A stretch of 30,966 bases of DNA from a virus. Within the stretch, counting starts at the first letter, position 1, and each line of letters starts with the position of its first letter. The notes beneath the pieces were generated by a model. The model was given only the letters and a program-made list of their open reading frames with translations. It made no database searches and had not been told where the DNA came from. Positions 15,701-29,032 of this stretch are shown one piece after another. The stretch lies in the IMG/VR virus record IMGVR_UViG_3300023170_000116, positions 1-30,966 of that record; one strand, given 5' to 3'. The translations under genes and the position numbers were made by a program.

Positions 15701-18700
15701 CGGATGGTAATCAAGGATTCTCTATTGTAATACATTCTACAATACCGGGTGCTGGTGGTAGGAATTTCTGTACATGGTTAGATAACAGTAAATCTCAAAC
15801 TCCTTACAAGCCTCAGTATCTCATAGGTCACGGTGGTAGATTTAGAAACTACTGGTGCCAGCCGGATGAGATAACTGGAGAAAACATGCACCCTGCCCCT
15901 ATGCCTATCAATAGATTTGGTAGACCATTTGCACCGATTACAACTCTCAAAGAATACTTACCTCCTGAGTCTCCTGATGATGAATTACTTAACAACCTTA
16001 ACTTAGGAGCAGATAGAATAGATAGCCAGTCTGCATTGGCTACGAGCAATGTTGAGATGGTAAGTGGAAGAAATGCCAACACAGTTCTCAACGAATCGTT
16101 TGAAACTAAAAGTCCTGCTTCTGTACTCGTAGACGGGTTGAGAGTAGGTACTAAAGCGAGAGCAAGAATAAACTTCGGTGGTATAACCCAAGCAGGTATA
16201 CCCGGTTGGGCACCTGACTTAAGCAAGTGGGGATTCGATAACGATGGAACTACCAATGTATCAAGATACGGTAATGCGAGTAATGCTGCAACTGCGATGA
16301 CAGCGACTACTGTACAAGCAGGAAGCGATGGGTATATTCCGTCAGATGATATGAAGAGCGAAAATATTGGTCAAAGACCCATGTATGGTTTGAAATTCAC
16401 AGACCACAGAGGAGATAACCATACCATTCGTTTACTTTACAGGCAGTTTGGTGAAGCCTTTGCCAGTGATAATACCTTCTTGCCATCTACGCTTGATGAA
16501 GAAATTATAATCCATTTCGATGATAGAGATGTAGGACAAGGTGGCTTTACCGTTGGTCGTCACATGGTTGGTAGCGGAGAGGTCTGTGGTGAAAAAACAG
16601 GAGGTGACCCTATCAATTTCAAAGGTAACCTTTGGAATACATACCCTGCTCCGGTTGTCGGTGTCAAGGTGACCACTACTTTATCGAGTAACGAAATGAC
16701 AGTTGTATTGGACAGACCTTATGCAGGTAATGTAAGTGACGCTGTAATGAATAATCATCCTGATATACTTGGCTATCTCGGATTACCTGAAAGTGGTATG
16801 TTCCAACTTTCAATGCATGGTACTACAGCCAATGACCATCAAGGTTTAACTTTCTACTATACGAGTAGAACTCATAACGCTGCTGGCGGAACTCATAAAT
16901 TCTACGGAGTTCAAGGCGGAGGAGCGAATCACGCTAACGGAGATTGGTATTTAAGTCCAAGAATCAACTTTACTTCTTTACTTACTGACGAAGTGATTGC
17001 AGCGGCTGTAGAACTTGCAATTAATTCAACTAATAATGACGAAGACATTACATTTGATTGTACGAATATGTTCGCCCCTGATGGTAAACGATTGAGCGAA
17101 TGGGGAGTTAGCCCAACTGCTATTAGAATCAGAACAAGAGCAGACGGTAAGACTCCGATGAGTAAGTTGTTTGAGGCTACTCGCACAAGAGACTGGGGTC
17201 TACTTGAAGGTGCTTCTACGGATGCGGTTGTTGCTTCTAAGCATACTGGTGGTTTATCTAATGCTGAGAAAGACGCAGGTACAAGATTGGACATAGGATA
17301 TATACCTTATACAGTTTTACAAATAAATACTAAGTTCAGAGGCTCTAATGCTAACACCGCTACTCCTGTGTTAGTAGATAGTCAGAATAACATAGTAGAT
17401 ACGACTACTTGGCAAAGAAACTTGAGGGGGGATAACTTTACTGATGTAGCAGGTGACCACATTATACCAAGAGTAGATTCACCATGTATTGAGGTACATA
17501 ATACATCAGGTTCAGTTATACTTGCTAACTCTAATGAGTCTTGGGCATTACTAGGTAAACTGGCATCTCATGATGCAAATAGTTGGGGAGAGCGTTATAT
17601 CGTTTGGTATAGTACTACTGAATATGCAGAAGTGTGCAGTCAACCCGGAACTAATGCCATCGTAAATGTAGACGAAAAAGTAGAGTCAGCCAACTTCGCA
17701 CCTTCGCAACACGATGTTCTATTCAAAGGAACAAGTCGCATAGCAGATTCTCGTGAAACAGATGGTATCCGCAGAGCAGGGAGTAAGCAATCTAGTCCTT
17801 TCCTTTACTTTAGAGGAGGCAGAGACAGCCCTGACCATTGGGTTCCACTTTACTTTGGTGGTGGATTTAGCGGTGCAGTAGTTGACATCAACGATGGTAC
17901 TCAAAATGACTACTCTGATTTCTACGAACATCCTTATTCCAGTGGACCTACAGGAAGCGCAGGTTTCCAAAATGTAGGAGAAATCGCTGGCTCTTACGCA
18001 TTGTTAGATGCGAATGCGATGATGGCTATGTTCCCCGGTACTCCTTATCTTGACCAGCATCGTGGTCAAAATAACCCTCCTTACTTCAACCAAGACGCTC
18101 TTTTACCATTCGATATGGCAAAGGGTGCAAATACAAAGGTTACTGGGTTAACCTATACAGACGGCTCAAATTCTGTACATGCAAATATACCAAGCCCTAT
18201 CGTTTTGAGATTCGCTCATCCAAATGCAAGATATGACTCAAGTGGAAACAAAGATGACCAAACCGTTTACATGGTATTTGGACCGGGGCAAGCCTTCCCT
18301 CACAACACCGCTTCGTTTGAGCCTCAAGGTGCTAACATAGTCACGGCAGGTAATGGATACAGTGCTGTACCTATACACTTTGGCGGAGTTGTTGGTCGTG
18401 ACACTTACTTGCCTAATCAACTTGCTAACGGTGATGGTACTGAGCATAGTGGCTTGAATAGAACAAGTAGTGTCGCTGCTCATTTACCTATGACCACCTT
18501 TTTCCAACAGAATAAGAGGTCAGGTTACAATTATGTAATGAACTGGGAGCCTGTCAAAGGTTTACCTTCTACAGCAGCGAGTTCTACTAAGAATTACACT
18601 CAGAGTTACAATCATGCGTTTTATTACGAAGGCTCAGTCGCCACTACTTCTAACCTACCTAAGCATTATCATCCTTTCAATTACAGATTTAGTGACATCA

Positions 18701-21700
18701 GTGGTAACCAAGTAGGTAGCGGTACATACCCTAAGACGAGGGCATCGGCTGTACTGTGGCACATGGATGGCGGTTATCATCCGGGTGGTCATTTCCTTGA
18801 TGACAGTGTAAATAAAAATCCAAAACATAGCGTGGCAAATGCGAGGCTTGCTACAGGTAGCGGTGCTAAACACAATTCCTCTGTATTCAGACCTTGTGGA
18901 CTTTTGGCAGAGGCTTATCTAACTTATTATGGAGGAACGCCTGATAACCAGTTATCGAATGAAAATATCGTTATCGTGGATGCTACGAGGTGTCAAAATG
19001 CAGAAGAGTTAGGAACTGTTATCAGTGGTGCTATCAACACATTCCCCGGCAAAAACCCATTGAAAGCAATCGGTGGTACATTCATGCCTTCGATGCAGAA
19101 CGCTCATAAACAAGATAGATACGGTTGGGTAGAACTTCCAGTTGTAAGTTATACCGCAGAAGCAGGTGCTACACCCGCCAGTTTGGTAGTTACTAATACA
19201 GCGACAACTTTGCCTAATTACGGCTGGTTGAGAGTAAGTGACGGTACTAACTCAGGTTACGCTCCTTATATTTCTTACAGTGTATCTTCTCCAAATACAA
19301 CATTAACATTAGCAGCAAACGCCGTAACATCTAACACAAATATAGTAGATGTAGCCAACGCTACTGCTTTGACTCCTGATGCTACTTACAAGGCTTATAT
19401 TTGGACAAAGGCTGGTACTCATAGATTCAACAACGCTGCGTCAGGTTCCGCTCGTGACCATATGACTCAAGTACATTACAGTGGGTACATAGATGCGGTA
19501 GACAGAACAAAACCTGTGGGTGCGGTTGGATGGGCAGGTGAAGCCTATTCTTATCTGAACTCTTACGAAGCACCTAACGATATAGGGGCTAATTTGCATC
19601 CGGCTGGATTAGGTGCTTGGCACCCATTCTTAGGTTTCAATCCCTACGGTGCTGCTGAAACCTGTGTATCAAGCCCCACACCAGTTGGAACAGCCGAAGT
19701 ACCTACAGCCACATTCTATGCTGATTACTGTGTGACTGGGTTATTCAGTAGACATTTGATTGCGATTACTCATGAAAGTGAATTACCTTTGATAGCGAAG
19801 GCAGATAGAGATGGAATAACTTGCGCCGGAGATTGGCTAAAGGTAGCAGAAACAGGTACGCTTTCTCATGCTGGTACAATTGCTTGGGACACGGATAAGG
19901 TTCACAATAAGAGCAGATATGTCGGCTCTGCTACTGCCGGTCCTCATGTAGAAGCGCAGATGCATAGTGGCTACACAAGGCCATCAGCATCAGGAGATTA
20001 TCCTGCATCAGGCTCCGCTCCTACTGATTTACAACTTCACCGTACCATACAAAGCGGTGACATGGTAAGGGCTAACGCTTGTAATTTTGCAACAGGTGAT
20101 TTATTTTGGGATGAATCAGTTGTTAAAAACTCTGCATTCCACGAAGATGCAGGTACATATGGAGTAGAATGTATAGGGGTAAGTAATCACGACCACTACT
20201 TAGACATCACTGCATCTCCTCACACTGGTCTTTATGGCTACTATGGAAGCAGACATCCATCTCGTAATTTCTTACCTGAGCATATAGTATGGAAGCGTAT
20301 GGATGGAGGAAGTCTAACCATGCCAGCAGTAAATGCTCGTGGACTCGGAATGGTTCCTTGGGTGAAACGCAAAGATGGTTCTGATTACAAGATGGTAGGA
20401 GAGAAAATACTTGGAAATGTAAGATTCTCTTTTGAAACAACTAACGGCGCAATGTTCCCTGTTATACAGGCTCAAGAATTAGGTCATCCTCAGTTAGCAA
20501 ATAAGCATCCTTTGGAAATCAGAAACGCTCTTCTGATTCCGAATGAGCACATTCAATTTGAAAGCGTACAAGTCGTAGACGATACTGGTCAAGAGCACAG
20601 GCTGTCAGGCGGCTCTCCTTTGGGAACTGTAATCATGGACTTCCGTCACATAAGCGACAGAGAAGTAGAAGGATTAGCACCTGCATTAGCCGGAGCAGGA
20701 GTAAGTCCTAACTTGAAAATAAGACTACCTAACCCTGACGAAATACCCGGCAACATAGTGGTTAGGTCAGGATTCGATAGAATACAGGCTTATCAAAATG
20801 AAACATTTGGCTCAGGTGGATTACAGCACCCTGCACAGAATATTACTAACATTCGTCAAATGTTTGAAAACGAATATGCAGGACCAAGGCTTTGGCCTAC
20901 TTGGGAAAATAACGGTTGGGAGCACCTAAGTCAAGATGCTATTGACATATCTACTGATACAAGTAACTCTCGATTGAAGTTCCCTGCTTCTACTAACGAA
21001 GGATGGTCAGACCATACAGACAACGCTCCTTTGAAGTCTGCTTACGAGCCTCACGACAGAAGCCTGTTCTTCCATGTCACACGCATGGGTGTAAGTATGA
21101 CTCATCGTTATGATGTAGATGAGTTATCATTCAGTGCTTATGATGAGGCGAACAACGAAATTGATGTCACCACTACACCGGAGTCTGCTACTTGGGCAGA
21201 TGCGAGTGAGCAAAGCGGCGGTCGCTATTTCCTCAGAGTATACGACCCTACTACGAACAAAGGTGTACTGGCATCTTATACAGGAACTGGTACAAACAAA
21301 TTTACAGGAGTAGTAGTATCTCCTGACTTCAAGTCTTTCATCAGTGGAAAGAGTGGATTAAAAGTAGTTCCAAGTTATTACATGCCTGCGGGTAGCACTC
21401 GTATGTTTGCAGCAAGGAGATTGCGTGACCACAGTGAATACAGTGGTGCCAGTCCTGATATGCAGAAGATTGATTGGTTTGATATGTACAGTAATTTACC
21501 AGCATCTACAGGAGCGATGGCAAAGCCATCAGTGCCTCACGAAAGTATAACTTCTCCTAAGATGACACCTATGCCTGTTCCAAGAATGGGTCATCACTAT
21601 GTCACACCTACTATGGCATTGATGCCGGGGCACTATGCTCACCCTGCCTATCAGAGATTGTATGATTTGAACAGGTCTTGTAAGAGTTCAAGTCACAGCC

Positions 21701-24700
21701 CTATCGAAGACTCTTTAGTAGGTACATTAGAAACTGCAAGAACTGGTGGAACTAATACACTCAACGACCAAGGGTTTGGTCGTGACCCATTGATTTGGTT
21801 CTCTACTCCATCGGCAGCATTCAGCCCAAGTGACATTCATGGCGGAGCGTTTACTCTTCTAACAGAAACCAAACTCAAATACGAAGGTTATGGGATAGCA
21901 GCGTCTGTAGGAACTAACGCCGGAGATGTAAATGCATCAGGTGGTCATACGCTTGTGTTAGAGGCAGCAGCGACTTATACCTTCAACAACCATTTCCCTG
22001 ACCCGTTAGAAGTAGGTGCTTATCAGATTATCATACAGCCGAATGTATTCAAGCAACAACTGAAAGGATTCCATGCTAATGGTCCTGCTACAGATGTACC
22101 TGATGGCTCGGTGGTAGAACTTACGGGACAACAGGTCAATACCGTGATTGCAATAGAAAAGAATGTATCGACAAGAGGCGGATACGCTCTCATATTAGCA
22201 GAGGCTACTATGGCAGATGTAAGAGGTTGTGAAGTAATACTAAACGAAATTATACTTGACATAGAGCCTGATGCTGGTAGTCAATTTACCAACCTACCAC
22301 CGTTGGCTCTTTACAACCCATTAGGTGTACAAGAAAGTTATAGCCCTTCATTTACAAGAAGAAGTCTTCCTTACAGACCAAATATGTTCAAGAGTTCTAC
22401 TCCGGGCAGAACACTGAATATCCCTTGGTGGGGTATCTTACACAAAGACGGTGCGTCTGCATCCGGTGCTAATAAATTCAAACACCTTGAGTGGCACAAG
22501 CCTGATAATTACTACGAGTTCTGTAGAGCAAACTACGGATGCGTAGGTGCTCAGTTGACGCTTGCTGGATACCCTACTTCATTCTTAGATATATACGAGC
22601 CTCATAAGAGGTTAAGGAGTCTGAATCCAAACTGCGTAGTAATCAGTGATAACGGCTCTTCTACAATCACCGTAGATAACAATGACCTTTTCCCAGTAGT
22701 ACCTTACTACGGTGAAGTGTTAGAGTTCACAAAGAACGGAGTAAGGTACACGGCGACTTACAGCAACAGAACTGGTACACTTGCTCATGCTAATTTGGGC
22801 GAAAGCGATACCTTTGAAGGCGTGACAGCGAATGCAGCGTTTTGGGCTAACATAGCGACTGGCGACATAATCAGACTTAGCCGACCTTATGACAATGCTA
22901 AATCTGATACACTGTATACTGATTTACAAACCAGCGTCTTGACAAGGCACTTGGGTCAATTGCAAACTGGAAGCAGAGATACCAACTCTCTAAATCCAGC
23001 AGACTCATTCCTTTGTATGTGGCATCCTAATTTGGGCAGACCGTTTACTTGGTACAGTGACGATAGCAGTAGGGCTTTCTATACTAAGGCAGGAACTGCT
23101 GATACTCCTGTAGACCAAAAAGGATACAACCACATTCCTGAGCACTTTGAGACAATCCACTATCAGGACTTTAATTATGTAGCAAGTAAAGGTCCATTCG
23201 CACTTGCTATGAAGTGGGTAAGTCCACCGGGCAGTGCTGGATTATCGACTGACGGTACAGTGTATACTGCTACGCAGATAGATGCAGATGCAAACTTGTC
23301 TAACCAAGGTGGTACAGTAGGCTCAAACAAATACAACTTCTTCGGCTTTTGGCCGGGTGGCTCTCACGGTGGAGGCGGAGTAAGTAGATTAGAATCGTAT
23401 GGTCATTCTCTGATTGGTTGGGGTAGCGATACATTTGGAATGGACTGCGAAACATATCAAGACTCTACTGGAGTCGCTACTCTAACTTTGCCAAATGACA
23501 GAAACAGATGCTTCGGTTATCGTATGGGAGTTCGCCAGTTGTACAACAGACCACGCTGGTCACCTTATGTCCGTGGATGGTTAGAGGTAGCAAATAGCAA
23601 CGCCATGCTTGGATATTATCACGGCCCTCTAATCCAGCAAGATTCTAAGACAAACGGTTGGGATTATGTGGGTTCGGATAGTGGTCAAAGTGACCAAGAC
23701 TTCGATGCAATGTATGTAGGTATACTTGAGAGGCTAACTCAAGTTTCAAGTCTAATCGGGCAAGACCAAATCGGTAGACAAGTCAGGTATAGCGATGGAA
23801 GAAGAATGACAGGGCCATTCGGTTGCCCTGTTAGAACTCTAAGAAATGCGTCTACTACTACCCGAATGTTCCCTAACGATGAGGCTGGACAAGGTATTGA
23901 AGAGTTGGCAAATGCTCACAGATTCTACATGGTAGATTGGTGGGGCAACACTCGTGGTGAAGATGTCAGGCGTTTCCCTGTAAGAGGATTCGGACTGCGC
24001 CCATCATGGGACCCCGAAGACGCTTACAAAGATACGAATGTGACGCACAGACCCGCTGCTCACAATCTGTTTGGCGGTGACGGTAATGACAGATATAGCG
24101 GTAGTGATAACTCAGATAACAACGATGGCACTAACATGGGAACAGCAGACTGGTTTAATCCAGCCAGTGCACTAAGAGTAGGTGACCGTGGAGATGGTAG
24201 AGGTGTTAGATGGCCTACTGTATTCAACGAAAGTCTACTGATGGCAGTTAGTGAAAACCACGATGCTACAGGATTAGTATTGTCTCATAGCACTGCCGAG
24301 CCAATATTCGGACAAGGACTGATTAGGCCAAGTAATGACGCTGCTCAGGCTGGAGAAATCGAAAGAGGTATCAGTGACAGAGTTGATTTGAACTCTGATG
24401 ATGGATTGCTCAAGCCAAGTGCACAAGTAGGTGAGGCTACTGAAACCGTTAACGCAGATGACCGTGGTGCAGAGCCAGTGTCGAGAAACGATGTAAGACT
24501 TGGGTTAGATGTAGACACGCTTGCTGAATTGAATGACGGTGTATCTCGTGAGTATGTAGTTCTGTCAACAGAGGCTGCGAGCCTACACACTGACAGAGAA
24601 GTAGGTCAGAGGACTAACATCAGAGGGGCTTACAATGTCGGTAGTCGAACTCTCAAAGACTTAGATATGACTGCATTAAATTGGAGTGCACAACCTGTCA

Positions 24701-25383
24701 CTGGTATCGTCAAGCATTCTAACGCTCATGCAATGTGGCCTCTTGGTGGAACATATGTCATGGAGTGGAGTAAACACGCTGGAATTTTAGATGTAAAGGG
24801 ATGGGGTAAGACAGGCGTATCTTCGTCATCTAACCCATACCAAGATGCTAACCACGACCCAATCCTTGAAAATATCAACTATACAGATAGCACTATACAG
24901 TTCTTGTACAGACCTGCTTATGGATTAGATTACAAGCACAGTCAAATGTTCAGACCTTATGTTGCTTTGAAGGGAAGCAGTCCTCAAGAGAATGCTAACT
25001 TTTACAGAGCAACTGCTGGCGGTAAGTACGGTATGTTCACCAGCGATGCACCATCTGCTCGCACAGGAACTCCAAGCAGTCCACCTTATGCTCCTGTTTA
25101 CAACATTGTTCCGACATCAAGTATCACAGTACCTGATAGCCAAGGTCCTAAGATTCAGGGTGTAGATGTCACAGGCTATGATAAGAGTGACATACGCTCA
25201 CCTGTAGCGAGAGTAGTCATGTCTGAGAATACACTTGAGCATTTCAGAGCAGATGCAAGTAGAAAGTCAGTAGATGACGATGAAGGCGATTACGAAGTGC
25301 AACCGAGATTCAGTCAAACCCTACACCCGAAGGGTAGTAAAGAGGATGCATCTTATAATACGGGTGACCATAGTGGGGAGTGA
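9757..25383 (+). CDS. Giant tail-tip / receptor-binding-like protein (5208 aa)
   Basis: One unbroken frame of 5208 codons, roughly 570 kDa. Residues about 1-235 form a LamG/concanavalin-like domain: FTLETWFIPDCGG, VTVIFDRKTLNLFVNGDL, then HIYLGGRGGDFRGTLEAIHF and TLGLWRFEEP. Later parts are rich in Gly, Asn, Asp, Ser, Thr, Tyr and His, without coiled coils, signal peptide or obvious membrane spans, as expected for stacked beta domains. At least four beta modules related to each other appear at about 13711-13970, 14212-14430, 19180-19400 and 22660-22900, with the motif D-x-x-L/I-F-P in three of them. A module at about 12340-12543 (VDGVDATTVIF, then ANGKNLGAVTAV) recurs in the hub protein. No catalytic residues are recognised. 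Its position between two distal tail proteins and the hub suggests a large host-contact structure. A tape measure is unlikely because it is not helical. The last six residues (GDHSGE) lie in a 51-bp repeat shared with the accessory genes. Confidence 0.6.
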   Translation: MTLTIDAGYAIKFNGISDSILVPVNNKFIHGVQNEERKGLPKAINSFTLETWFIPDCGGVIFEQENVMRLTVGSPSSPAPATFEVRLRNQASGRDTVYTLATAKPVTKANGRIAYWDGIQFPLENDMHTSYLATDVERDDSSALNEGHRELLNVTVIFDRKTLNLFVNGDLAVSQELEEEHELVTQQNHIYLGGRGGDFRGTLEAIHFSRGSLPSGYQQYAPVKSDNTLGLWRFEEPVTPINLITTTPSITASTSANSTITIGTTAAQALVDELSGQSGLTSLDFTASPYSGGNYSVTVHAASSTSTASIPKVPYNILVNPLGYNQTTGKPTGKSPERMRLMSVDASAGTITVESIHLDFSANPTSGRRGALMNHDAGRFVIITGDCIVDTGNGNDFQPYGTGTQFSQRQGQVIIDESDFNNNGIMFSQSMAIDSHEYNQFSASTTNVGKQFVAGHSGRHVLNHVVSHPFMGTLPPTSSHDVEKKLDIGSDVLVAGFPSQFSDIRSTVPINSVVSSYDTHGPIKIESLSNSTLVNSVVENGMSDIDDTQRGILAIGGKGFDPEPFMLKSTSANDEKGDTKHIVPASESRIAILHVPDLSTYNYAPFLQVHYNAIDVDGNQFTTGATSRLTANISGANTVLTLQSVKSFGFDGETISANLINIAGTVASSSSSIVGTIDYATKTITFNLAVDAGFATLATTGAIVKVSNFDSKIMITDILPKVDTIVTGSTSILDVIRSSLKGRDLRLFSPGGVIEFNQPEMFGFLDGDLEGETSEGTVAEKVLNYDLCPENYLPLTSTDSPQTTPQAIAVATSELSTRGSVFHRVVVRTNKTNLGTFQEVANVRSQDATNGSRPRIGVKINNASGYSSSTTGAMTVDGVDATTVIFVGDNLYKANGKNLGAVTAVSTTSVTVGGGTSDALVDDDELFTQPQITGRGTANQSSCVHEYFDIIEHQSVGKTVKLVIQPSDKSRFNILSKMSASTEAANYITVESLTSRARVLSFSDDAEGNTVMRAHGIISDLASSSVYVKGSAAPDSHIVKEIMPGAPVVTMTLGGPGQGAVNTKESYDPSPLSRLEWSTRRDCQTRVGSTTSTTVVVAPLNNKSTDLQSWGTYCFPKVGKIYLQVAGNQGEQIRFASAEYASKTGDTFTFVSGTGHTGTGKFVLADGSEADSLSAWITATGITAGSILHVDDKFGEEAMCNDGTTINDRLFQTLDTVQHDYQLGTQYASTRALVEIPLFEQFFFDNPENGIFPGPDNSMKLHIDATHTAHSWNPNPVGRRPNSISPQDPELFGPFSYAIQNKTHRSGTKITRPYDSTNYRIYVEDANIFPIPTAPPVEVAYLGGSARYRRAFLGNGEWVIYSARDTTDHYLTVVDSGDDHAFSEFFLRDISVGSHIFPAPGYQDMNYSSMADNPSLISAGYENRRSFYFDRSNVMTQGGNVDYGLKQYVSAIELKAGPSVNPHLPKIVSKRPRGIIASVTGSPATSITLEDGSLFPISSTDSDYKFRVAWKNASGTVNRGFYDNRVDNVLTIVSPDAGFTPAVGDEIYVEDLYATGAGTYPKVKETFLNRAWSHPYCVGGLRQGDTVWMNMHYTNPHAIEGLFCKSRGTLNEAEVWSGFNGGEGAFDADPRDSIPMENFLIGDSCIETAQNLVQHINKTIEMNYDAIGLSETPPVVAYLDPYQCTQDYARILLYDVEHDREFIAFQDLHMQVQSSPATSSIGKEDTNKTGYIDNSVDGSGSLLDVAAGFPTQNKRLNTTEQSDFIEASYAHQSVWNASVVNIMSEHDVGGVDDTATNGYTDRTDNAVTIASDANTKHQEIDSSTREQSTFFDTPDGTRVIPAFLAMKGIRNSALTLDNTRMNNLDHWTKMDFVRRLTIDMGEVSLKDGVTNIESAAREVVRLINQAGARNGKTQARKPADQFLGVSDKFDPADVHQKADFATTGSTHDPAPFWDVKKSFSSHDRGSHMGYVRAHLGRVVLDSDGNQGFSIVIHSTIPGAGGRNFCTWLDNSKSQTPYKPQYLIGHGGRFRNYWCQPDEITGENMHPAPMPINRFGRPFAPITTLKEYLPPESPDDELLNNLNLGADRIDSQSALATSNVEMVSGRNANTVLNESFETKSPASVLVDGLRVGTKARARINFGGITQAGIPGWAPDLSKWGFDNDGTTNVSRYGNASNAATAMTATTVQAGSDGYIPSDDMKSENIGQRPMYGLKFTDHRGDNHTIRLLYRQFGEAFASDNTFLPSTLDEEIIIHFDDRDVGQGGFTVGRHMVGSGEVCGEKTGGDPINFKGNLWNTYPAPVVGVKVTTTLSSNEMTVVLDRPYAGNVSDAVMNNHPDILGYLGLPESGMFQLSMHGTTANDHQGLTFYYTSRTHNAAGGTHKFYGVQGGGANHANGDWYLSPRINFTSLLTDEVIAAAVELAINSTNNDEDITFDCTNMFAPDGKRLSEWGVSPTAIRIRTRADGKTPMSKLFEATRTRDWGLLEGASTDAVVASKHTGGLSNAEKDAGTRLDIGYIPYTVLQINTKFRGSNANTATPVLVDSQNNIVDTTTWQRNLRGDNFTDVAGDHIIPRVDSPCIEVHNTSGSVILANSNESWALLGKLASHDANSWGERYIVWYSTTEYAEVCSQPGTNAIVNVDEKVESANFAPSQHDVLFKGTSRIADSRETDGIRRAGSKQSSPFLYFRGGRDSPDHWVPLYFGGGFSGAVVDINDGTQNDYSDFYEHPYSSGPTGSAGFQNVGEIAGSYALLDANAMMAMFPGTPYLDQHRGQNNPPYFNQDALLPFDMAKGANTKVTGLTYTDGSNSVHANIPSPIVLRFAHPNARYDSSGNKDDQTVYMVFGPGQAFPHNTASFEPQGANIVTAGNGYSAVPIHFGGVVGRDTYLPNQLANGDGTEHSGLNRTSSVAAHLPMTTFFQQNKRSGYNYVMNWEPVKGLPSTAASSTKNYTQSYNHAFYYEGSVATTSNLPKHYHPFNYRFSDISGNQVGSGTYPKTRASAVLWHMDGGYHPGGHFLDDSVNKNPKHSVANARLATGSGAKHNSSVFRPCGLLAEAYLTYYGGTPDNQLSNENIVIVDATRCQNAEELGTVISGAINTFPGKNPLKAIGGTFMPSMQNAHKQDRYGWVELPVVSYTAEAGATPASLVVTNTATTLPNYGWLRVSDGTNSGYAPYISYSVSSPNTTLTLAANAVTSNTNIVDVANATALTPDATYKAYIWTKAGTHRFNNAASGSARDHMTQVHYSGYIDAVDRTKPVGAVGWAGEAYSYLNSYEAPNDIGANLHPAGLGAWHPFLGFNPYGAAETCVSSPTPVGTAEVPTATFYADYCVTGLFSRHLIAITHESELPLIAKADRDGITCAGDWLKVAETGTLSHAGTIAWDTDKVHNKSRYVGSATAGPHVEAQMHSGYTRPSASGDYPASGSAPTDLQLHRTIQSGDMVRANACNFATGDLFWDESVVKNSAFHEDAGTYGVECIGVSNHDHYLDITASPHTGLYGYYGSRHPSRNFLPEHIVWKRMDGGSLTMPAVNARGLGMVPWVKRKDGSDYKMVGEKILGNVRFSFETTNGAMFPVIQAQELGHPQLANKHPLEIRNALLIPNEHIQFESVQVVDDTGQEHRLSGGSPLGTVIMDFRHISDREVEGLAPALAGAGVSPNLKIRLPNPDEIPGNIVVRSGFDRIQAYQNETFGSGGLQHPAQNITNIRQMFENEYAGPRLWPTWENNGWEHLSQDAIDISTDTSNSRLKFPASTNEGWSDHTDNAPLKSAYEPHDRSLFFHVTRMGVSMTHRYDVDELSFSAYDEANNEIDVTTTPESATWADASEQSGGRYFLRVYDPTTNKGVLASYTGTGTNKFTGVVVSPDFKSFISGKSGLKVVPSYYMPAGSTRMFAARRLRDHSEYSGASPDMQKIDWFDMYSNLPASTGAMAKPSVPHESITSPKMTPMPVPRMGHHYVTPTMALMPGHYAHPAYQRLYDLNRSCKSSSHSPIEDSLVGTLETARTGGTNTLNDQGFGRDPLIWFSTPSAAFSPSDIHGGAFTLLTETKLKYEGYGIAASVGTNAGDVNASGGHTLVLEAAATYTFNNHFPDPLEVGAYQIIIQPNVFKQQLKGFHANGPATDVPDGSVVELTGQQVNTVIAIEKNVSTRGGYALILAEATMADVRGCEVILNEIILDIEPDAGSQFTNLPPLALYNPLGVQESYSPSFTRRSLPYRPNMFKSSTPGRTLNIPWWGILHKDGASASGANKFKHLEWHKPDNYYEFCRANYGCVGAQLTLAGYPTSFLDIYEPHKRLRSLNPNCVVISDNGSSTITVDNNDLFPVVPYYGEVLEFTKNGVRYTATYSNRTGTLAHANLGESDTFEGVTANAAFWANIATGDIIRLSRPYDNAKSDTLYTDLQTSVLTRHLGQLQTGSRDTNSLNPADSFLCMWHPNLGRPFTWYSDDSSRAFYTKAGTADTPVDQKGYNHIPEHFETIHYQDFNYVASKGPFALAMKWVSPPGSAGLSTDGTVYTATQIDADANLSNQGGTVGSNKYNFFGFWPGGSHGGGGVSRLESYGHSLIGWGSDTFGMDCETYQDSTGVATLTLPNDRNRCFGYRMGVRQLYNRPRWSPYVRGWLEVANSNAMLGYYHGPLIQQDSKTNGWDYVGSDSGQSDQDFDAMYVGILERLTQVSSLIGQDQIGRQVRYSDGRRMTGPFGCPVRTLRNASTTTRMFPNDEAGQGIEELANAHRFYMVDWWGNTRGEDVRRFPVRGFGLRPSWDPEDAYKDTNVTHRPAAHNLFGGDGNDRYSGSDNSDNNDGTNMGTADWFNPASALRVGDRGDGRGVRWPTVFNESLLMAVSENHDATGLVLSHSTAEPIFGQGLIRPSNDAAQAGEIERGISDRVDLNSDDGLLKPSAQVGEATETVNADDRGAEPVSRNDVRLGLDVDTLAELNDGVSREYVVLSTEAASLHTDREVGQRTNIRGAYNVGSRTLKDLDMTALNWSAQPVTGIVKHSNAHAMWPLGGTYVMEWSKHAGILDVKGWGKTGVSSSSNPYQDANHDPILENINYTDSTIQFLYRPAYGLDYKHSQMFRPYVALKGSSPQENANFYRATAGGKYGMFTSDAPSARTGTPSSPPYAPVYNIVPTSSITVPDSQGPKIQGVDVTGYDKSDIRSPVARVVMSENTLEHFRADASRKSVDDDEGDYEVQPRFSQTLHPKGSKEDASYNTGDHSGE

Positions 25384-25413
25384 GGCGTATGACACCGATG
25401 GAGAAGGCTTGGG
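25363..25413 (+). repeat. 51-bp direct repeat, copy A (gene junction)
   Basis: Identical over 51 bases to 26262-26312. It covers the last six codons and stop of the giant gene, the ribosome binding site GGGGAG (25375-25380), and the first eight codons plus one base of the next gene (MTPMEKAW). The match ends abruptly on both sides (CGGG against TAGG upstream, CGGTTT against TAGTGT downstream). Confidence 0.9.
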
Positions 25414-25847
25414 CGGTTTTGAAAATGCCTGTTTACGATACAGGTATACCCGGAATACAATTTGTCACTCAAGGAGAAAATGAAAATTGGTCGCAAGATA
25501 AAAACTTACATGGGGGCTTACCGGGCGTTTGGATGAAAGAAGGTAAAACATTTGATTCTTCTCAAAGAGAAATACCACATGAAAGGGATTTAGAAGATAT
25601 TGCAGAAATAACCAACATGACTCCAAATCAATTCTTACAAGAAACAGGAACAGATGAAATGGTTGATGACGATTACTACAAAAACCTCATGCAAAGAGCA
25701 ATACAAGGTGAAAATATGCGTTTTGTGATGCCAAGAGCAGATTATGAGTTTACTGACAGCCCTGTGGGGCATGATGGAAGACATCGTATGCAAGCGTTGA
25801 GAGATTTAGGATATGGAAATTTACCAGTACCAGTTTTTAGACAGTAG
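25389..25847 (+). CDS. Tagged accessory protein 1: ParB/sulfiredoxin-like C-terminal domain
   Basis: 152 residues from ATG 25389, which has GGGGAG 8 bases upstream. A GTG at 25380 is in frame, but it overlaps that binding site. Residues 1-12 are the shared tag MTPMEKAWAVLK. The C-terminal part holds GHDGRHRMQALRDLGY at 127-142, followed by strand LPVPVF. This D/E-G-x-H/R-R plus helix plus I/L-P-V-x-V pattern is that of the ParB/sulfiredoxin-like fold, used by ParB CTPases, Srx and some nucleases, and often found in phage-borne or toxin-like proteins. The middle is acidic and helical (EDIAEITNMTPNQFLQE). Activity (nuclease, nucleotidase or binding only) cannot be told from sequence. It is the first of four tagged genes, located after the giant tail gene. 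ParB partitioning is unlikely because there is no DNA-binding domain. Confidence 0.65.
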   Translation: MTPMEKAWAVLKMPVYDTGIPGIQFVTQGENENWSQDKNLHGGLPGVWMKEGKTFDSSQREIPHERDLEDIAEITNMTPNQFLQETGTDEMVDDDYYKNLMQRAIQGENMRFVMPRADYEFTDSPVGHDGRHRMQALRDLGYGNLPVPVFRQ

Positions 25848-25895
25848 GGAGTGAAGCGCATGACACCGATGGATGAGGCTTGGACATTGTTAAAG
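25847..25895 (+). repeat. Junction repeat, diverged copy B
   Basis: A related copy of the junction segment: GGGAGTGAAGCGC, then ATGACACCGATGGATGAGGCTT in the gene start, then TTAAAG. It differs from copies A and C at several bases, mostly in codons 5-6 of the tag and in the leader, and encodes the tag variant MTPMDEAWTLLK. Here the upstream GDHSGE-coding part is missing, because the preceding gene ends in VFRQ. Confidence 0.8.
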
Positions 25896-26282
25896 CGTCA
25901 GACTACGCTTGGCGAGTTTCACCCCGATTTACCAAGTCCTTATGGTCCTGTGACTCATTATCATGGAACAAGTGCACAGTATTTACCGAGCATCCGAAGA
26001 GAAGGGCTTCGTCAATCAGTTAATGAGCCTATTTACGGTCAAGGTGTATATGTCGCTGATAATTACAAACAATCTAAGTTATACGCAGATGATGGACCTG
26101 CTGGTGTTGAGGCGAGAGTCAATTTTGATTTAAGTAGACATCAGCCCAGTGTTATTGGAATAAGGGGTCAATCTCTTCCCTTCTCCTCAACAGTAGGACG
26201 AGAGCATTTTGGAGAAGGTAAGTTCAACCTTAACAACATTGACCCGAAGTATCTTGTTATAGGTGACCATAGTGGGGAGTGA
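25860..26282 (+). CDS. Tagged accessory protein 2: ADP-ribosyltransferase-like
   Basis: 140 residues from ATG 25860 (GGGAG lies 8 bases upstream; an in-frame GTG at 25851 adds only MKR and overlaps that site). Residues 1-12 are the tag MTPMDEAWTLLK. The rest has the signature of the ADP-ribosyltransferase fold: THYHGTSAQYLPSIRREGL at 32-50 with the NAD-binding His35-Gly36-Thr37, then GQGVYVADNYKQSKLYA at 60-76 with Tyr64 and Tyr75, matching the H and Y motifs of the H-Y-E class. A glutamate for the third motif is not certain; Glu115 or Glu119 near IDPKYLVI are candidates. Such enzymes move ADP-ribose from NAD+ to a protein or nucleic acid, and T4-like phages inject related enzymes to modify the host. 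It may be a virion effector. The RNA 2'-phosphotransferase family (KptA-like) is an alternative within the same fold. Confidence 0.7.
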   Translation: MTPMDEAWTLLKRQTTLGEFHPDLPSPYGPVTHYHGTSAQYLPSIRREGLRQSVNEPIYGQGVYVADNYKQSKLYADDGPAGVEARVNFDLSRHQPSVIGIRGQSLPFSSTVGREHFGEGKFNLNNIDPKYLVIGDHSGE

Positions 26283-26312
26283 GGCGTATGACACCGATGG
26301 AGAAGGCTTGGG
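26262..26312 (+). repeat. 51-bp direct repeat, copy C (gene junction)
   Basis: Perfect match to 25363-25413, 899 bases downstream. It covers the last six codons (GDHSGE) and stop of the ADP-ribosyltransferase-like gene, the GGGGAG binding site, and the MTPMEKAW start of the next gene. Recombination between copies A and C would remove accessory genes 1 and 2 exactly and leave an intact junction. Confidence 0.9.
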
Positions 26313-26785
26313 TAGTGTTAAAGCAATCCCAGTCACATAAGTTTGACTTCTTAGGCTACAGTTCCAGCCAAGAGCCTTTTGGCATAGTCACGATAAAGTC
26401 TTCAAAAGGAGAAAGGAAAATACCATTTTATCAACGAAGTGGCGGAGGCTCGGCATACAATTTTGAAACTGGACAGACTGAGTATGAAGAAGGTGAGCCA
26501 CGAGCAGGTCAATGGGTTCCTTTTCTTGGGTATGATACTGATATGCATTTTGGTGATTCAGCACAGCCTTATTTGATTAAACCATATCATGTCTTCAAAA
26601 GAGATGAAGATGTACACAAAAGATATACCGTTCCTCAACTCAAAGAGGCAGGTGAATGGTTAGACCGTAATCACGATGTAAAGCCCTTTGACCCCAACAC
26701 ACATGATGAAATAGATTGGGAAGACGCTAATCAGATGATGTTAGAACAAGGGGCGCATTTAGCAGAACCTTACAGGGGAGAGTGA
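26288..26785 (+). CDS. Tagged accessory protein 3: unknown domain
   Basis: 165 residues from ATG 26288, with GGGGAG (26274-26279) 8 bases upstream. Residues 1-12 are the tag MTPMEKAWVVLK. The remaining protein is not recognised. It shows strands near FGIVTIKSSKGERKIPFY, a Gly/Ser loop SGGGSAYNFETG, aromatic and acidic segments (WVPFLGYDTDMHF, then IKPYHVFKRDEDVHKRY) and a C-terminal acidic helix (DEIDWEDANQMMLEQ). His, Asp and Glu are plentiful, so a metal-dependent enzyme is possible but not shown. By analogy with the flanking tagged genes it is probably another effector or virion cargo protein. It overlaps the end of the previous gene's stop region and ends just before the next tagged gene. 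Confidence 0.6.
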   Translation: MTPMEKAWVVLKQSQSHKFDFLGYSSSQEPFGIVTIKSSKGERKIPFYQRSGGGSAYNFETGQTEYEEGEPRAGQWVPFLGYDTDMHFGDSAQPYLIKPYHVFKRDEDVHKRYTVPQLKEAGEWLDRNHDVKPFDPNTHDEIDWEDANQMMLEQGAHLAEPYRGE

Positions 26786-26825
26786 TAGCATGACACCGAT
26801 GAATGAGGCTTGGTTGGTGTTAAAG
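26775..26825 (+). repeat. Junction repeat, diverged copy D
   Basis: Fourth copy of the junction: GGGGAG, a changed leader AGTGATAGC, then ATGACACCGATGAATGAGGCTT and GTTAAAG. It encodes the tag variant MTPMNEAWLVLK. The leader here has no in-frame GTG upstream, which shows that the ATG of MTPM is a usable start and supports the same start in the other three genes. Confidence 0.8.
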
Positions 26826-27377
26826 GCAAAATTTCACTTTGAGCCTAAAATAAGAGGTAGGACAATGGAAGCAGGTTGGGTCCCTGCTTCACTCCCTAAT
26901 AGACCGGACTGGGGGCTTGCCGAATGGCAGTCTGATATTGAAGCCCACCCTTCTGAAATGCAAATAAATCTTGGTCACTCTAAATGGCCTTATGAGGTTA
27001 AGAGTATGTCGGGCGGGGAGTTCCAATTACCTGAATACCCTGAATCCAGTGGTGTACCTAACAGTTATTGGAAACATTACGACAAAAAGTATGATGAGCA
27101 CTTAGTCAATAGTATCGCCAATACACTTCGACACGAAGGTATACACGAAGCACTCGATAACACACCTGAAATGAGACACGCTGCACTTAATGCATTAAGA
27201 GAGAAAAAAAGCGGTAATCCCGTTCCTTTCAATCAGTACAGAATTGCTCACGAAACTATGGCTAATTTCCAGCCCCCTGATTACCAAGGTGATAAAGAAA
27301 ATGTCAAGACTTACCCTTGGCTTGATGCAGATTTATGGGAAGAGGCTCAGAAAGTTAGACAAGGTGGTTGGGAGTAA
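26790..27377 (+). CDS. Tagged accessory protein 4: HExxH zinc-metalloprotease-like
   Basis: 195 residues from ATG 26790 (GGGGAG 9 bases upstream). Residues 1-12 are the tag MTPMNEAWLVLK. The central helix SIANTLRHEGIHEALDN contains HEGIH at 115-119, the zinc-binding HExxH motif of zincins, with His115 and His119 as metal ligands and Glu116 as the catalytic base. A second helix has AHETMANF at 153-160, where Glu155 could be the third ligand as in gluzincins. The N-terminal half (about 13-100) is Trp/Pro-rich, without a recognised family. The predicted role is proteolysis, either of virion parts during assembly or of a host target after delivery; neither can be decided. The TAA stop overlaps the start of the hub gene (TAATG). 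The motif is short, so the enzyme class is probable, not certain. Confidence 0.65.
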   Translation: MTPMNEAWLVLKAKFHFEPKIRGRTMEAGWVPASLPNRPDWGLAEWQSDIEAHPSEMQINLGHSKWPYEVKSMSGGEFQLPEYPESSGVPNSYWKHYDKKYDEHLVNSIANTLRHEGIHEALDNTPEMRHAALNALREKKSGNPVPFNQYRIAHETMANFQPPDYQGDKENVKTYPWLDADLWEEAQKVRQGGWE

Positions 27378-29032
27378 TGGCAGTAGGTAAGAACACAGTT
27401 ACTGGTCGCTTTGACGCTGACCAAGATTCTGTTATGAAGGTCGTGCGTAAACCACGCTTCGTAGATAACGCTGTCAGACATGGTGAGTACACACGAGTCA
27501 AAGCAGGATTCGCTGTCAACAAACCTACTGCTACAGATTTCGTTCCTACCGCTGAGAGAAAGTACAAGTTGATTGAGGAAGAGGATACTGTCCGTTTGCT
27601 TCACAACCCTACAGATAGCATTCGATACGAGGGCGCAGTTTACTTCGACAAAGACAAAGTAAGCACTTCCAGTACACTACCTGCACTGTTAGTAGGTGCT
27701 GAAAACAACGACCAAGCGTTAGTGGTATCTCAGATAAAAGACGCTAACAAAGGTACGAGGTATTTGGTTGAGAATCTGAAAGGGCAAGAATTAGCCAACA
27801 TTGGCTTCACCAATAAAACCATCCGTTTTGCTCAGAAAGTGGGCGTGGGCTTGCGAACTTCTGACTTGGCAGTTAGAGTAGCAAAAGCAAACACTTCATC
27901 AATCAACGGAGTGAGAGCGAGGCTACCAAGTTCTACTTTCCTTGCTCAAGACTTCTATGGTGTCGAGGCATTCAGCGCACTCAGATACCTCGCAAAGCAC
28001 GATGGCTATAGCCCTCGTGGTGACAGGTATGGGAATGTCTGCTATTTCCCTCAGAATAGAATAGAAAGAGAATATCTGTTGACTGAGAACAGAGTAGTAG
28101 GAGGTACTGTTGATGACAATAACGAAACCACTCCTAACAGAGTAGTCGTCAGAGGAAAAGCAAGAGCCAACAATCATCAAAATACAGTACAAGTAGATGA
28201 CTTTGGTAGACAAGAAAACGGCATAAACGAAGTACCGGGTGGCATACATGCTCCTACAGCAGTTACCAAAGCCAGTGCTAAGTTGATAGGTCAGCGTATG
28301 CTAAAGATGGCAAAAAACGCTACAGGCTCTCGTAAGTTAGTAGATGTCCTGTCTGCTACACATATGCATCCGGGCGACATGGTATCTTACCAATCAAGAA
28401 CTGATAACGAAAGATACATGGTACTGGGAACCAAGTTTGACTTAGATACAAGAATGAGTGAACTTCATGTCAACTCTGTAGATGTGACATTAGAAGATGT
28501 ATTACAGCGTTTCCAAGAAATAGACATCAGTGGTAATTTAGAGGCTAATCAAGAAAGAAATAGACAGTTCTCAACAGAAGAGTTCTCTACATCTTTTGGC
28601 TTCAAATTCAAAGTGACTTGGCAAATATCTGAAAGAGTAGATATGAACCGTGGAGTAGGATACACTCTTGGTATGAACAGGCGCAATTCCATACACGGAG
28701 ATATATTCTTTGAAAGCACAGGTGTACTAATCAATAACGCTGGCGGATATGCAATTGGTACTTCTTCATTCACAGTTGATGGAGTGAATGCTACCAGCGT
28801 ATTTACCACTGATAATCAGGCTGTTTACACTGCGAATGGTAATAAGTTAGGTCACATTAACTTAGCCGGAGTAGGTGCAACTACGGTGGTAATCAAATCT
28901 GCGAGTGTACATCCAATCGCTGATAACGAAGAAATATTCATACTATCTACACAGACCAATCCTGAATCAAGGAATAGTCGCTTGAAGATAGGTACGATAC
29001 ACAGTAATTATTTGAACACGAGGAGGGGATGA
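27377..29032 (+). CDS. Baseplate hub-like tail protein
   Basis: 551 residues from ATG 27377, overlapping the previous stop (TAATG), with AGGTG at 27362-27366. An in-frame TTG at 27368 is less likely. The segment from about residue 250 to 395 resembles the hub domains of gp27/late-control-D proteins: VRGKARANNHQNTVQVDD, then a long helix TKASAKLIGQRMLKMAKN, then VDVLSATHMHPGDMVSYQ, a beta barrel typical of hub proteins with the HPGDMV turn, and MSELHVNSVDVTLEDVLQRF. Residues about 450-525 hold an added beta module (SFTVDGVNATSVF, then ANGNKLGHINLA, then IADNEEIFIL) also found in the giant protein. It probably sits at the tail tip, linking tube, giant protein and fibres. The hub assignment rests on fold pattern. 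Confidence 0.55.
   Translation: MAVGKNTVTGRFDADQDSVMKVVRKPRFVDNAVRHGEYTRVKAGFAVNKPTATDFVPTAERKYKLIEEEDTVRLLHNPTDSIRYEGAVYFDKDKVSTSSTLPALLVGAENNDQALVVSQIKDANKGTRYLVENLKGQELANIGFTNKTIRFAQKVGVGLRTSDLAVRVAKANTSSINGVRARLPSSTFLAQDFYGVEAFSALRYLAKHDGYSPRGDRYGNVCYFPQNRIEREYLLTENRVVGGTVDDNNETTPNRVVVRGKARANNHQNTVQVDDFGRQENGINEVPGGIHAPTAVTKASAKLIGQRMLKMAKNATGSRKLVDVLSATHMHPGDMVSYQSRTDNERYMVLGTKFDLDTRMSELHVNSVDVTLEDVLQRFQEIDISGNLEANQERNRQFSTEEFSTSFGFKFKVTWQISERVDMNRGVGYTLGMNRRNSIHGDIFFESTGVLINNAGGYAIGTSSFTVDGVNATSVFTTDNQAVYTANGNKLGHINLAGVGATTVVIKSASVHPIADNEEIFILSTQTNPESRNSRLKIGTIHSNYLNTRRG
29021..29028 (+). promoter_or_regulatory. Strong ribosome binding site that supports a TTG start
   Basis: AGGAGGGG lies 5 bases before the TTG at 29034. 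No ATG or GTG exists in that frame near the site, and the protein-like sequence starts right at this codon (MPLLDEGTRFLIDTLKD), so TTG initiation is likely. Confidence 0.65.

Follow-up and report, generated by a model that had tools for sequence, protein, structure and literature searches.

A conserved 12-residue motif on many unrelated late proteins of archaeal-type tailed viruses, a candidate address label for particle loading

What is the use of one and the same short peptide at the start of four neighbouring viral proteins that otherwise have nothing in common? The question is raised by the window, that is, the whole stretch of 30,966 nucleotides of IMG/VR record IMGVR_UViG_3300023170_000116, in which an original prediction, made from the DNA letters, had seen four consecutive genes that open with MTPMxxAWxxLK and then diverge. 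A DNA pattern for MTPMxxAWx[hydrophobic]LK gave four exact matches in the window, at 25389, 25860, 26288 and 26790 on the + strand, and none in 100 dinucleotide shuffles of the window with up to two mismatches allowed; together with the translations, these matches bear out the prediction. The features of the locus are listed below, with genes given from their ATG starts (for genes 1–3 a GTG start three codons upstream is also possible).

9757..25383, +, giant late gene, 5,208 aa, left flank of the cargo island
25359..25388, +, conserved leader, covers the last codons of the preceding gene (..GDHSGE-stop) and contains the Shine-Dalgarno-like GGGGAGTGAGGCGT
25389..25424, +, tag 1, MTPMEKAWAVLK (translation, pattern match)
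25389..25847, +, tagged gene 1, 152 aa, GHDGRHR motif; tagged body family of 20
25860..25895, +, tag 2, MTPMDEAWTLLK (pattern match, structure model)
25860..26282, +, tagged gene 2, 140 aa, predicted ADP-ribosyltransferase (KptA/PARP-type) fold; tagged body family of 34
26258..26287, +, second leader copy before gene 3, 28/30 identical
26288..26323, +, tag 3, MTPMEKAWVVLK (translation, pattern match)
26288..26785, +, tagged gene 3, 165 aa, no family match; resembles a late protein of record G015
26790..26825, +, tag 4, MTPMNEAWLVLK (translation, pattern match)
26790..27377, +, tagged gene 4, 195 aa, HEGIH metallopeptidase-like motif; tagged body family of 5
27377..29032, +, conserved late gene, 551 aa, right flank of the cargo island

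Cargo and spread of the motif

Comparison of the islands showed that the cargo at this site differs from virus to virus. The 551-aa gene on the right flank matched a Pfam tail protein only at E 0.03, and a Pfam search at 0.001 returned no match; the window region and gene 2, looked up in the phage collection, had no match there. After residue 12 the four proteins are unrelated, as had been claimed, but this does not extend to the tagged relatives of gene 2, many of which share a second linker, RQTTLGEFHPDLPSPYGPV. The earlier domain calls were loose. The ADP-ribosyltransferase-like nature of gene 2 was upheld by a Pfam PARP match (E 1.5e-4, under the curated cut-off) and by the similarity of its predicted fold to KptA/PARP-type structures (Foldseek probability 1.00, E only 2.4e-3), and the HEGIH motif of gene 4 is present. 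The GHDGRHR of gene 1, which we take to be ParB/Srx-like, is a call by motif alone, and the gene has no convincing Pfam or PHROG match of its own. No family match was found for gene 3, which resembles residues 262–381 of a late protein with several domains and 667 aa in G015 (36% over 137 residues, E 5.7e-14).

The motif is not confined to this array. A relaxed viral scan found at least 120 stretches, 80 of which were listed, and the totals are lower bounds: at least 332 distinct tagged proteins (median length 156 aa) in at least 168 body families, of which 114 are singletons. Fewer than 70 open codons precede the tag in 320 of these proteins, from 163 families. The cargo comprises ADP-ribosyltransferases, HD proteins (alarmone-hydrolase-like), NUDIX proteins, DNA methylases, HExxH proteins and basic DUF6321-type proteins, and multi-part proteins with internal tags occur, one of them of 667 aa (locus L181). 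The expectation that many different toxin or enzyme domains would follow the same tag, always in virion modules of related viruses, agrees with the survey, in which the tagged domains are unrelated, their genes lie on the virion strand and the viruses belong to a single related group. A cellular origin is not supported: among 84,980 cellular genomes scanned there were five matches, none convincing, with a chance expectation of about seven calculated from the degeneracy of the pattern. Three lie in frames of 15–36 residues, one opens a 285-residue protein that is membrane-like by eye, and in the fifth (L162) the motif is absent on translation.

The general form of the tag is M-[TNS]-[AP]-[FM]-x-x-A-W-x-[LIV]-[LVM]-K, with a core F/M-x-x-A-W-x-L-L-K and conserved positions 4, 7, 8 and 10–12. 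Position 8, at which the search expressions did not demand W, is W in 325 and F in 7 of the at least 332 tagged proteins; the invariance of A and K is partly built in, these residues having been demanded by the expressions. The last residue of the core is K at 401 sites and R or E at 15 (5 of them N-terminal), part of the loci having been fetched with K in the pattern; in 80 loci for which only the capsid protein served as query the ratio was 11 to 0. Synonymous codons vary freely at the conserved residues (218 cluster representatives: Phe TTT 98/TTC 81, Lys AAA 138/AAG 80). The sequence comparisons support the view that the tag is a conserved protein-level signal on many unrelated domains.

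Modelled as a helix, the 9-residue core is amphipathic (median moment 0.50 vs 0.32 for shuffled cores). A model of gene 2 of moderate confidence has a helix at residues 3–14 and no secondary structure from there until residue 31, with residues 15–18 below pLDDT 50, so that the tag probably forms a short helix. The best PDB match of the tagged HD protein is a (p)ppApp hydrolase, in an alignment that begins at residue 15. Relatives of the HD domain occur in 557 phage records; the 15 alignments listed start at query residue 6 and do not locate the start of the domain. The gene 2 model, the residue-15 structure match and C-terminal copies of the motif disfavour the possibility that the tag is an integral part of each fold.

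The original prediction had called the tag N-terminal. In 3,006 proteins, 305 sites were indeed N-terminal (183 match the patterns by which loci were fetched and 122 lie outside them), but 15 C-terminal and 81 other sites had been missed; the reversed motif gave 0, 0 and 3 in the same proteins. Strict rules left 36 of the 81 as internal (inter-domain) copies, six of which represent one conserved family, and 45 as ambiguous. The 80 capsid-fetched loci (1,017 proteins) contained five N-terminal, one internal and five C-terminal sites, and neither reversed nor R/E motifs. Eleven of the proteins listed have an N-terminal tag plus a further copy; ten remain once L008, an artefact of the called start, is left out. 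At 29 non-N-terminal sites, 13 of them strict internal ones, the motif precedes a body that is found behind an N-terminal tag in other proteins, and in 26 of the 29 both alignments begin within four residues of the K. A domain that in one virus forms a gene of its own after the motif can in another follow it within a fusion. These gene-or-fusion domains, and the C-terminal and inter-domain copies, argue for docking or sorting at the protein level; they speak against a leader for translation and against a site of DNA recombination alone.

Within the MTPM group the DNA before the tags is also conserved. Gene 2, like the gene upstream of gene 1, ends in GDHSGE, and a DHSGE-stop-GGAGTGA leader lies within the 30 bases before the tag in 24 of 40 members of the MTPM group. 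Such leaders, the near-identical copies before genes 1 and 3 and the varying cargo at the same site would suit a shared start that is a feature of DNA or translation, namely a homologous leader for cassette recombination or a strong initiation context. Across the wider family, however, codons vary freely and leaders differ, and C-terminal and inter-domain copies cannot serve initiation; on account of these copies we reject a translation-start or DNA-only signal as the main function, and regard such an account of the motif as very improbable. The conserved DNA in the MTPM group indicates that recombination also shapes the locus, and the leader homology probably describes cargo exchange at this site, not the function of the tag.

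Carrier viruses and the strand of the tagged genes

Among the matches listed from both viral scans, 47 distinct records reach 40 kb or more; a common major capsid protein is encoded by 37 of them, six more encode the PolB DNA polymerase of the lineage, and two of the remainder are chance matches. Two fragments, G081 and G082, have no lineage assignment by capsid or PolB. The relatives of the G005 capsid protein in the phage collection are 11 records, all of archaeal viruses (HVTV-1/2, HCTV-1/5/16, vir519, vir335); the structure model of the capsid protein has a mean pLDDT of only 33. A Peptidase_S78 prohead protease adjoins the capsid gene in G005, G010 and G015, and G013 encodes PolB, a TCP-1/cpn60 chaperonin and an AAA clamp-loader-like protein. 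The window itself, without capsid and PolB genes, was placed via its syntenic relatives G013 and G005. The magrovirus-like group, described in part in PMC10160649, has PolB, replication and structural modules and a capsid related to that of haloarchaeal tailed viruses, and the same modules and capsid relation are found in the carriers. By sequence, the carriers constitute a single magrovirus-like lineage with archaeal tailed viruses as its relatives, and appear to infect marine archaea.

Tagged genes are confined to the virion strand: 19 of 137 genes on this strand and 0 of 142 on the other carry the tag (p 7e-7, unfiltered count), or 17 of 112 and 0 of 121 when a Shine-Dalgarno filter is applied to all genes. 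The 19 are an undercount, since wrong starts were called for some tagged genes, among them the HD gene of G013. Across 27 records, 86 of 88 pattern matches lie on the strand of the capsid gene, the exceptions being in G018 and G019; a backward control pattern gave six matches in the same set. An other-strand gene of G010 has an internal motif and adjoins a tail-like gene.

Docking, loading and cleavage

We consider it rather likely that the tag is an address helix that docks cargo in archaeal-type tailed viruses, most likely for loading into the particle and delivery. The amphipathic helix of the 12-residue tag would dock many different proteins to one common partner, whether placed at either end of the protein or between its domains. 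The partner would most likely belong to the immature head, as scaffold, capsid interior or portal, and tagged cargo would be built into the particle and enter the next cell with the DNA, where the delivered enzymes (ADP-ribosyltransferase, HD, NUDIX, DNA methylase, HExxH and DUF6321-type) would act early. Speculatively, the S78 prohead protease might cut after the tag lysine. Of the predicted virion-loading tag there stands, in this form, a conserved and probably helical signal on unrelated domains in virion-strand genes; its restriction to N-termini was dropped. The overlap of the cargo kinds with injected polyvalent proteins and T4 Alt counts for loading. Against it we count the lack of a motif match in the haloarchaeal virus HVTV-1, whose capsid protein is related, and in 22 capsid-bearing fragments of 22–54 kb, the G018 match opposite its capsid gene, and the C-terminal copies, which do not fit the one-cut N-terminal scheme of T4. 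On a broader claim we are evenly balanced: that a general, position-independent 12-residue address code loads a large, fast-changing arsenal of enzymes into the particles of marine archaeal tailed viruses, genes or fused domains becoming cargo once the helix is added to one of their ends or placed between domains.

The same amphipathic core might instead dock late proteins within the producing or infected cell, at a membrane, a virus factory or the virus-encoded chaperonin. Of the 23 records that carry the motif and span 80 kb or more, 21 encode a TCP-1/cpn60 chaperonin, but G010 and G046 (records possibly incomplete) have several motif matches and no chaperonin match, and a role inside the cell alone gives in itself no reason to expect that 142 other-strand genes lack the tag; we find this role unlikely.

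Processing alone seems less probable still, i.e. that [LIV][LVM]K is only a cutting site of the prohead protease, by which domains are freed and virion proteins trimmed, and the element has no part in targeting. The bodies restart right after the K, [LI]LKAD stands some 33 residues into the capsid proteins examined, and hydrophobic-hydrophobic-K-[ASG] immediately precedes the protease domain in the listed protease-scaffold proteins, although this lysine may simply be part of the S78 fold. In proteins of at least 80 aa with a Shine-Dalgarno score of at least 4, orthologues of several genomes being counted as independent, hydrophobic-hydrophobic-K occurs within residues 4–45 of 44/141 untagged late vs 14/89 early proteins, and the trend is reversed for the version with R (10/141 vs 18/89); in the 42 residues that follow, late proteins have no excess (27/141 vs 23/89). 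However, cleavage leaves F4, A7 and W8 unexplained, and a cut at the K would strip merely 1–12 residues from a C-terminal copy. A cleavage site common to tag, capsid and protease, for which the late/early comparison argues modestly, is an interesting possibility.

If particle loading is true, this single motif picks out the proteins that are likely injected by ocean viruses of a widespread group that has no cultured representatives in the phage collection searched. Hundreds of candidate effectors against archaeal cells would be at hand; to our knowledge, little is known of takeover and counter-defence in these cells. The T4 capsid-targeting idea would extend to archaeal viruses and to both protein ends, and the tag would be a testable, portable loading peptide. 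Keyword listings of open-access papers, and the passages of papers used here, mention no such tag.

Comparison with known systems

Head loading in the manner of the T4 capsid targeting sequences (CTS) appears, by analogy, to be the best explanation, and the T4 precedent had been aptly chosen: in both cases a short conserved N-terminal peptide stands on different proteins. In the part of PMC9026906 used here, residues 4 and 7 of the 10-residue T4 CTS serve targeting and residues 8 and 10 processing, next to conserved positions 4, 7, 8 and 10–12 in the present tag; T4 heads carry the ADP-ribosyltransferase Alt, and an ADP-ribosyltransferase is tagged here. A prohead protease is encoded in these viruses too, of the S78 type. 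In contrast to T4, the sequence differs, the tag is also C-terminal (15) and internal (36 strict), it ends in K and not glutamate, with no [LI]xE site of the gp21 type, and it is found on at least 168 body families in an archaeal-type lineage, for which loading is likely and cutting speculative. The head propeptides of SPN3US and phiKZ are likewise N-terminal on virion proteins and are removed by the prohead protease; those of SPN3US are 20–254 residues long (PMC10052503) and are cut after glutamate (PMC9026906, figure legend), and the part of PMC10052503 used here describes no common 12-residue tag. Polyvalent proteins of phages and conjugative elements combine the same kinds of domain, encoded near virion genes (ART, ParB-like, metallopeptidase, DNA N6-methylase and RelA/SpoT-related, in the part of PMC5512222 used here), whereas the carriers described here are mostly small, each with its own tag, and the motif often lies between fused domains. 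The encapsulation peptides of bacterial microcompartments, as far as described in the part of PMC12339742 used here, are short amphipathic helices joined by a flexible linker to the N- or C-terminus of diverse enzymes; they typically have 18 residues and serve the shell of a cellular organelle, and the likeness to the present tag is an analogy of function only.

The four tagged genes of the window

Four consecutive genes of the window had been claimed to share an N-terminal tag; this observation is real, and its extent is greater than first reported. Each gene opens with MTPM[EDN][KE]AW[ATVL][VL]LK, and these four are the only matches to the pattern in the window, with none in 100 shuffles. 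The genes form a cargo island:

9757-25383, left flank, a single 5,208-aa gene
25389, ATG of tagged gene 1
25860, ATG of tagged gene 2
26288, ATG of tagged gene 3
26790, ATG of tagged gene 4
right flank, a 551-aa gene

The window is itself a virus record of 30,966 bases. Half of it is taken up by the 5,208-aa gene, and the syntenic relative G013 has a similar gene of 5,220 aa. Ten entries, of which nine are distinct (L036 and L169 represent one virus), were compared at the site of the island: they carry one to four MTPM genes between the same flanking genes, in nine different sets.

For gene 2, structure prediction from 13 sequences (mean pLDDT 69) gave a helix at residues 3–14, no secondary structure at residues 15–30 and a fold from residue 31. 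Foldseek ranked tRNA 2'-phosphotransferases best (the first at probability 1.00, E 2.4e-3) and PARPs next; no match to this model had an E-value below 0.001. The pattern of the tag fits that of a helical docking label, with the hydrophobic positions 4, 7, 8, 10 and 11 directed towards one helix face, a charged lysine closing the helix and a flexible stretch following.

Separately, the window is nearly purged of short palindromes (seen/expected: GATC 0/100, AGCT 0/126, ACGT 0/58, CGCG 0/33, CTAG 3/110, CCWGG 0/39). The values for CCWGG are 0/101 in G005 (also syntenic), 0/56 in the virus record G015, 0/41 in part of G013 and 81/157 in the record G010. The purge resembles what evasion of several host restriction systems would produce. 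Avoidance of CCWGG would also explain the rarity of GCC-TGG (13 of 662 Ala-Trp pairs, versus 19% GCC in all Ala codons; long frames of L001-L161 and the window).

Spread of the tag and its positions in proteins

Searching viral metagenomes with the motif and listing the domains behind it yielded many loci and many different bodies. In the viral contig collection, MTPMxxAWx-hydrophobic-LK was found in 39 stretches and the relaxed pattern Mx[PAST]FxxAWx-hydrophobic-[LF]K in at least 120. From the collected loci 332 distinct tagged proteins were extracted, which excludes that the motif is confined to the one array. Single-linkage clustering of the post-tag sequences (blastp, E 1e-5) gave 168 families, 114 singletons; fewer than 70 open codons lie ahead of the tag in 320 of the 332 proteins (163 families). 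Many tags per genome are possible, as the 10.9-kb locus L046 shows twelve. Among the genomes of 84,980 bacterial and archaeal species (one genome per species), the related pattern Mx[PAST]F[DE]xAWx-hydrophobic-hydrophobic-K matched 5 stretches, none of them a convincing tag.

When 131 representatives were aligned with gene 2, A7, W8 and K12 were invariant and M1 nearly so, the invariance of A and K, but not of W, being partly imposed by the search expression. Position 8 is W in 325 tagged proteins and F in 7. Taken over 218 cluster representatives, the consensus reads M-[TNS]-[AP]-[FM]-[DE]-x-A-W-x-[LIV]-[LVM]-K, with little in common beyond K.

Judged from the sequences, the tag is a protein signal, because the conserved residues are encoded by freely varying synonymous codons and the motif also occurs at the C-terminal ends of proteins or between domains. 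Across 3,006 non-redundant called proteins (780,621 residues), 305 sites are N-terminal (in the first residues), 15 C-terminal (at most 12 residues from the stop) and 81 elsewhere; these counts partly reflect selection, because the motif itself was used to fetch loci (the search patterns match 183 of the N-terminal sites and miss 122). The same proteins contain the reversed motif 3 times and a version with R or E replacing K 15 times. Where retrieval relied on the capsid protein alone, 80 loci (1,017 proteins) contained 5 N-terminal sites, 5 C-terminal sites and 1 internal site; reversed and R/E versions were absent.

Strict internal sites (60 or more residues after the called start, without a start codon just ahead) number 36, of which 6 come from a single conserved family of late proteins; another 45 sites are ambiguous. 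The [GSTKE]PM type, often [TS][GE]EPM[DEN][IL]A[FW][QR]LLK, makes up 15 of the 36. Ten proteins combine an N-terminal tag with at least one further copy (an eleventh, in L008, was left out as an artefact of the called start), and one of the ten, a NUDIX protein of locus L107, is tagged at each end. For 29 non-N-terminal sites, 13 of them strict internal, the body downstream of the motif recurs in other loci after an N-terminal tag; both alignments begin at most 4 residues from K in 26 of these cases. The APVYTDDN body, for example, forms a tagged gene of its own in L072 and L091; in L107 and L102 it belongs to a fusion.

Virus lineage, genome position and cargo

One major capsid protein family was found in 37 of 47 pattern-matching records of at least 40 kb (distinct ones among the matches listed). 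The other ten comprise six whose DNA polymerase B is related to that of the lineage, two chance matches and two unplaced fragments. Each of the 8 capsid-bearing records that reach about 80 kb has two or more motif matches; none was present in 22 capsid-bearing fragments of 22–54 kb or in the haloarchaeal virus HVTV-1 (102 kb). The capsid-record set gave 88 matches versus 6 for the backward control, and 86 of the 88 lie on the capsid gene's strand (27 records with matches). In the three records using both strands (G005, G010 and G013; no gene filter), the N-terminal tag is present on 19/137 capsid/late-strand genes versus 0/142 other-strand genes (Fisher p 7e-7).

Tagged genes cluster at a few places in the late region: beside tail genes (as in the window), past the capsid gene and ahead of the terminase. 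Late proteins encoded immediately past the capsid gene have C-terminal copies (loci L194, L198, L202, L203 and L205). An untagged HMG-CoA-lyase-like gene (PF00682, E ∼2e-22) lies inside tagged clusters of G005 and G010 (L167:1551-2396 and L177:3957-4823, both minus strand); the tag is therefore not simply a property of the region.

Eleven records of the phage collection, all of archaeal viruses, contain a relative of the G005 capsid protein (haloarchaeal viruses at 31–33% identity, plus two others linked to methanogens), and G013 encodes PolB, a TCP-1/cpn60 chaperonin and a clamp-loader-like AAA protein. For these reasons the window is read as a putative magrovirus-like virus of marine archaea, a name taken from kinship and from PMC10160649, not from a host record. 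The chaperonin is present in 21 of 23 motif-bearing records of at least 80 kb. HVTV-1 has a gene annotated 'zeta toxin' (L267:13623-17564) between head-assembly and protease genes, a position similar to that of the 1,939-aa (G005) and 1,151-aa (G010) proteins; the former matches DNA ligase at E 6e-4, below the curated cut-off.

Among 132 tagged sequences, taken as single members of their families, Pfam assigned NUDIX, DUF6321 (judged basic on inspection), D12 DNA adenine methylase, HD, helix-turn-helix, LIM and PARP; at least 124 of the sequences had no match at E 1e-3. PHROG matches include a ParB C-terminal domain, phosphohydrolase, methyltransferase and one portal-like protein; PADLOC returned methyltransferases and two unnamed candidates. 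Among the 332 proteins, HExxH was counted 26 times, a YHGT-like ART start 34 and GRHR 7. The HD protein of locus L001 aligns, from residue 15 onwards, with the structure of a (p)ppApp hydrolase (E 4.6e-12).

Possible cleavage, probable head loading and comparison with T4

The lysine of the tag might belong to a prohead-protease site shared with the capsid protein and the protease, which on sequence grounds we consider possible rather than probable. The capsid proteins examined have [LI]LKAD about 33 residues from the start, and the listed protease-scaffold proteins of the S78 family have hydrophobic-hydrophobic-K ahead of the protease domain, although this lysine may be structural. Within residues 4–45, hydrophobic-hydrophobic-K occurs in 44/141 untagged late versus 14/89 early proteins (at least 80 aa, with a Shine-Dalgarno-like site; orthologues entered separately). 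The R version is rarer in late (10/141) than in early proteins (18/89), the E version differs little (21/141 versus 18/89), and in the 42 residues that follow, hydrophobic-hydrophobic-K is not enriched in late proteins (27/141 versus 23/89). Against a shared site, C-terminal tags need no cut.

The proposal that the tag is a sorting signal is well supported. Loading of the tagged proteins into the virus head would be its most likely role, the best reading though unproven, because of the restriction to the virion strand, the tight link with one capsid lineage, the types of cargo and the C-terminal copies beyond the capsid gene. The domains of the cargo are of the kinds listed for injected polyvalent proteins in PMC5512222, and the enzyme class of T4 Alt is also represented. 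In the 10-residue capsid targeting sequence of T4, residues 4 and 7 drive targeting and residues 8 and 10 processing, according to PMC9026906. The layout of the tag is strikingly parallel, a likeness that is, as far as we can tell, convergence; position independence, breadth of cargo and occurrence in archaeal-type viruses set the tag apart from T4-like capsid targeting.
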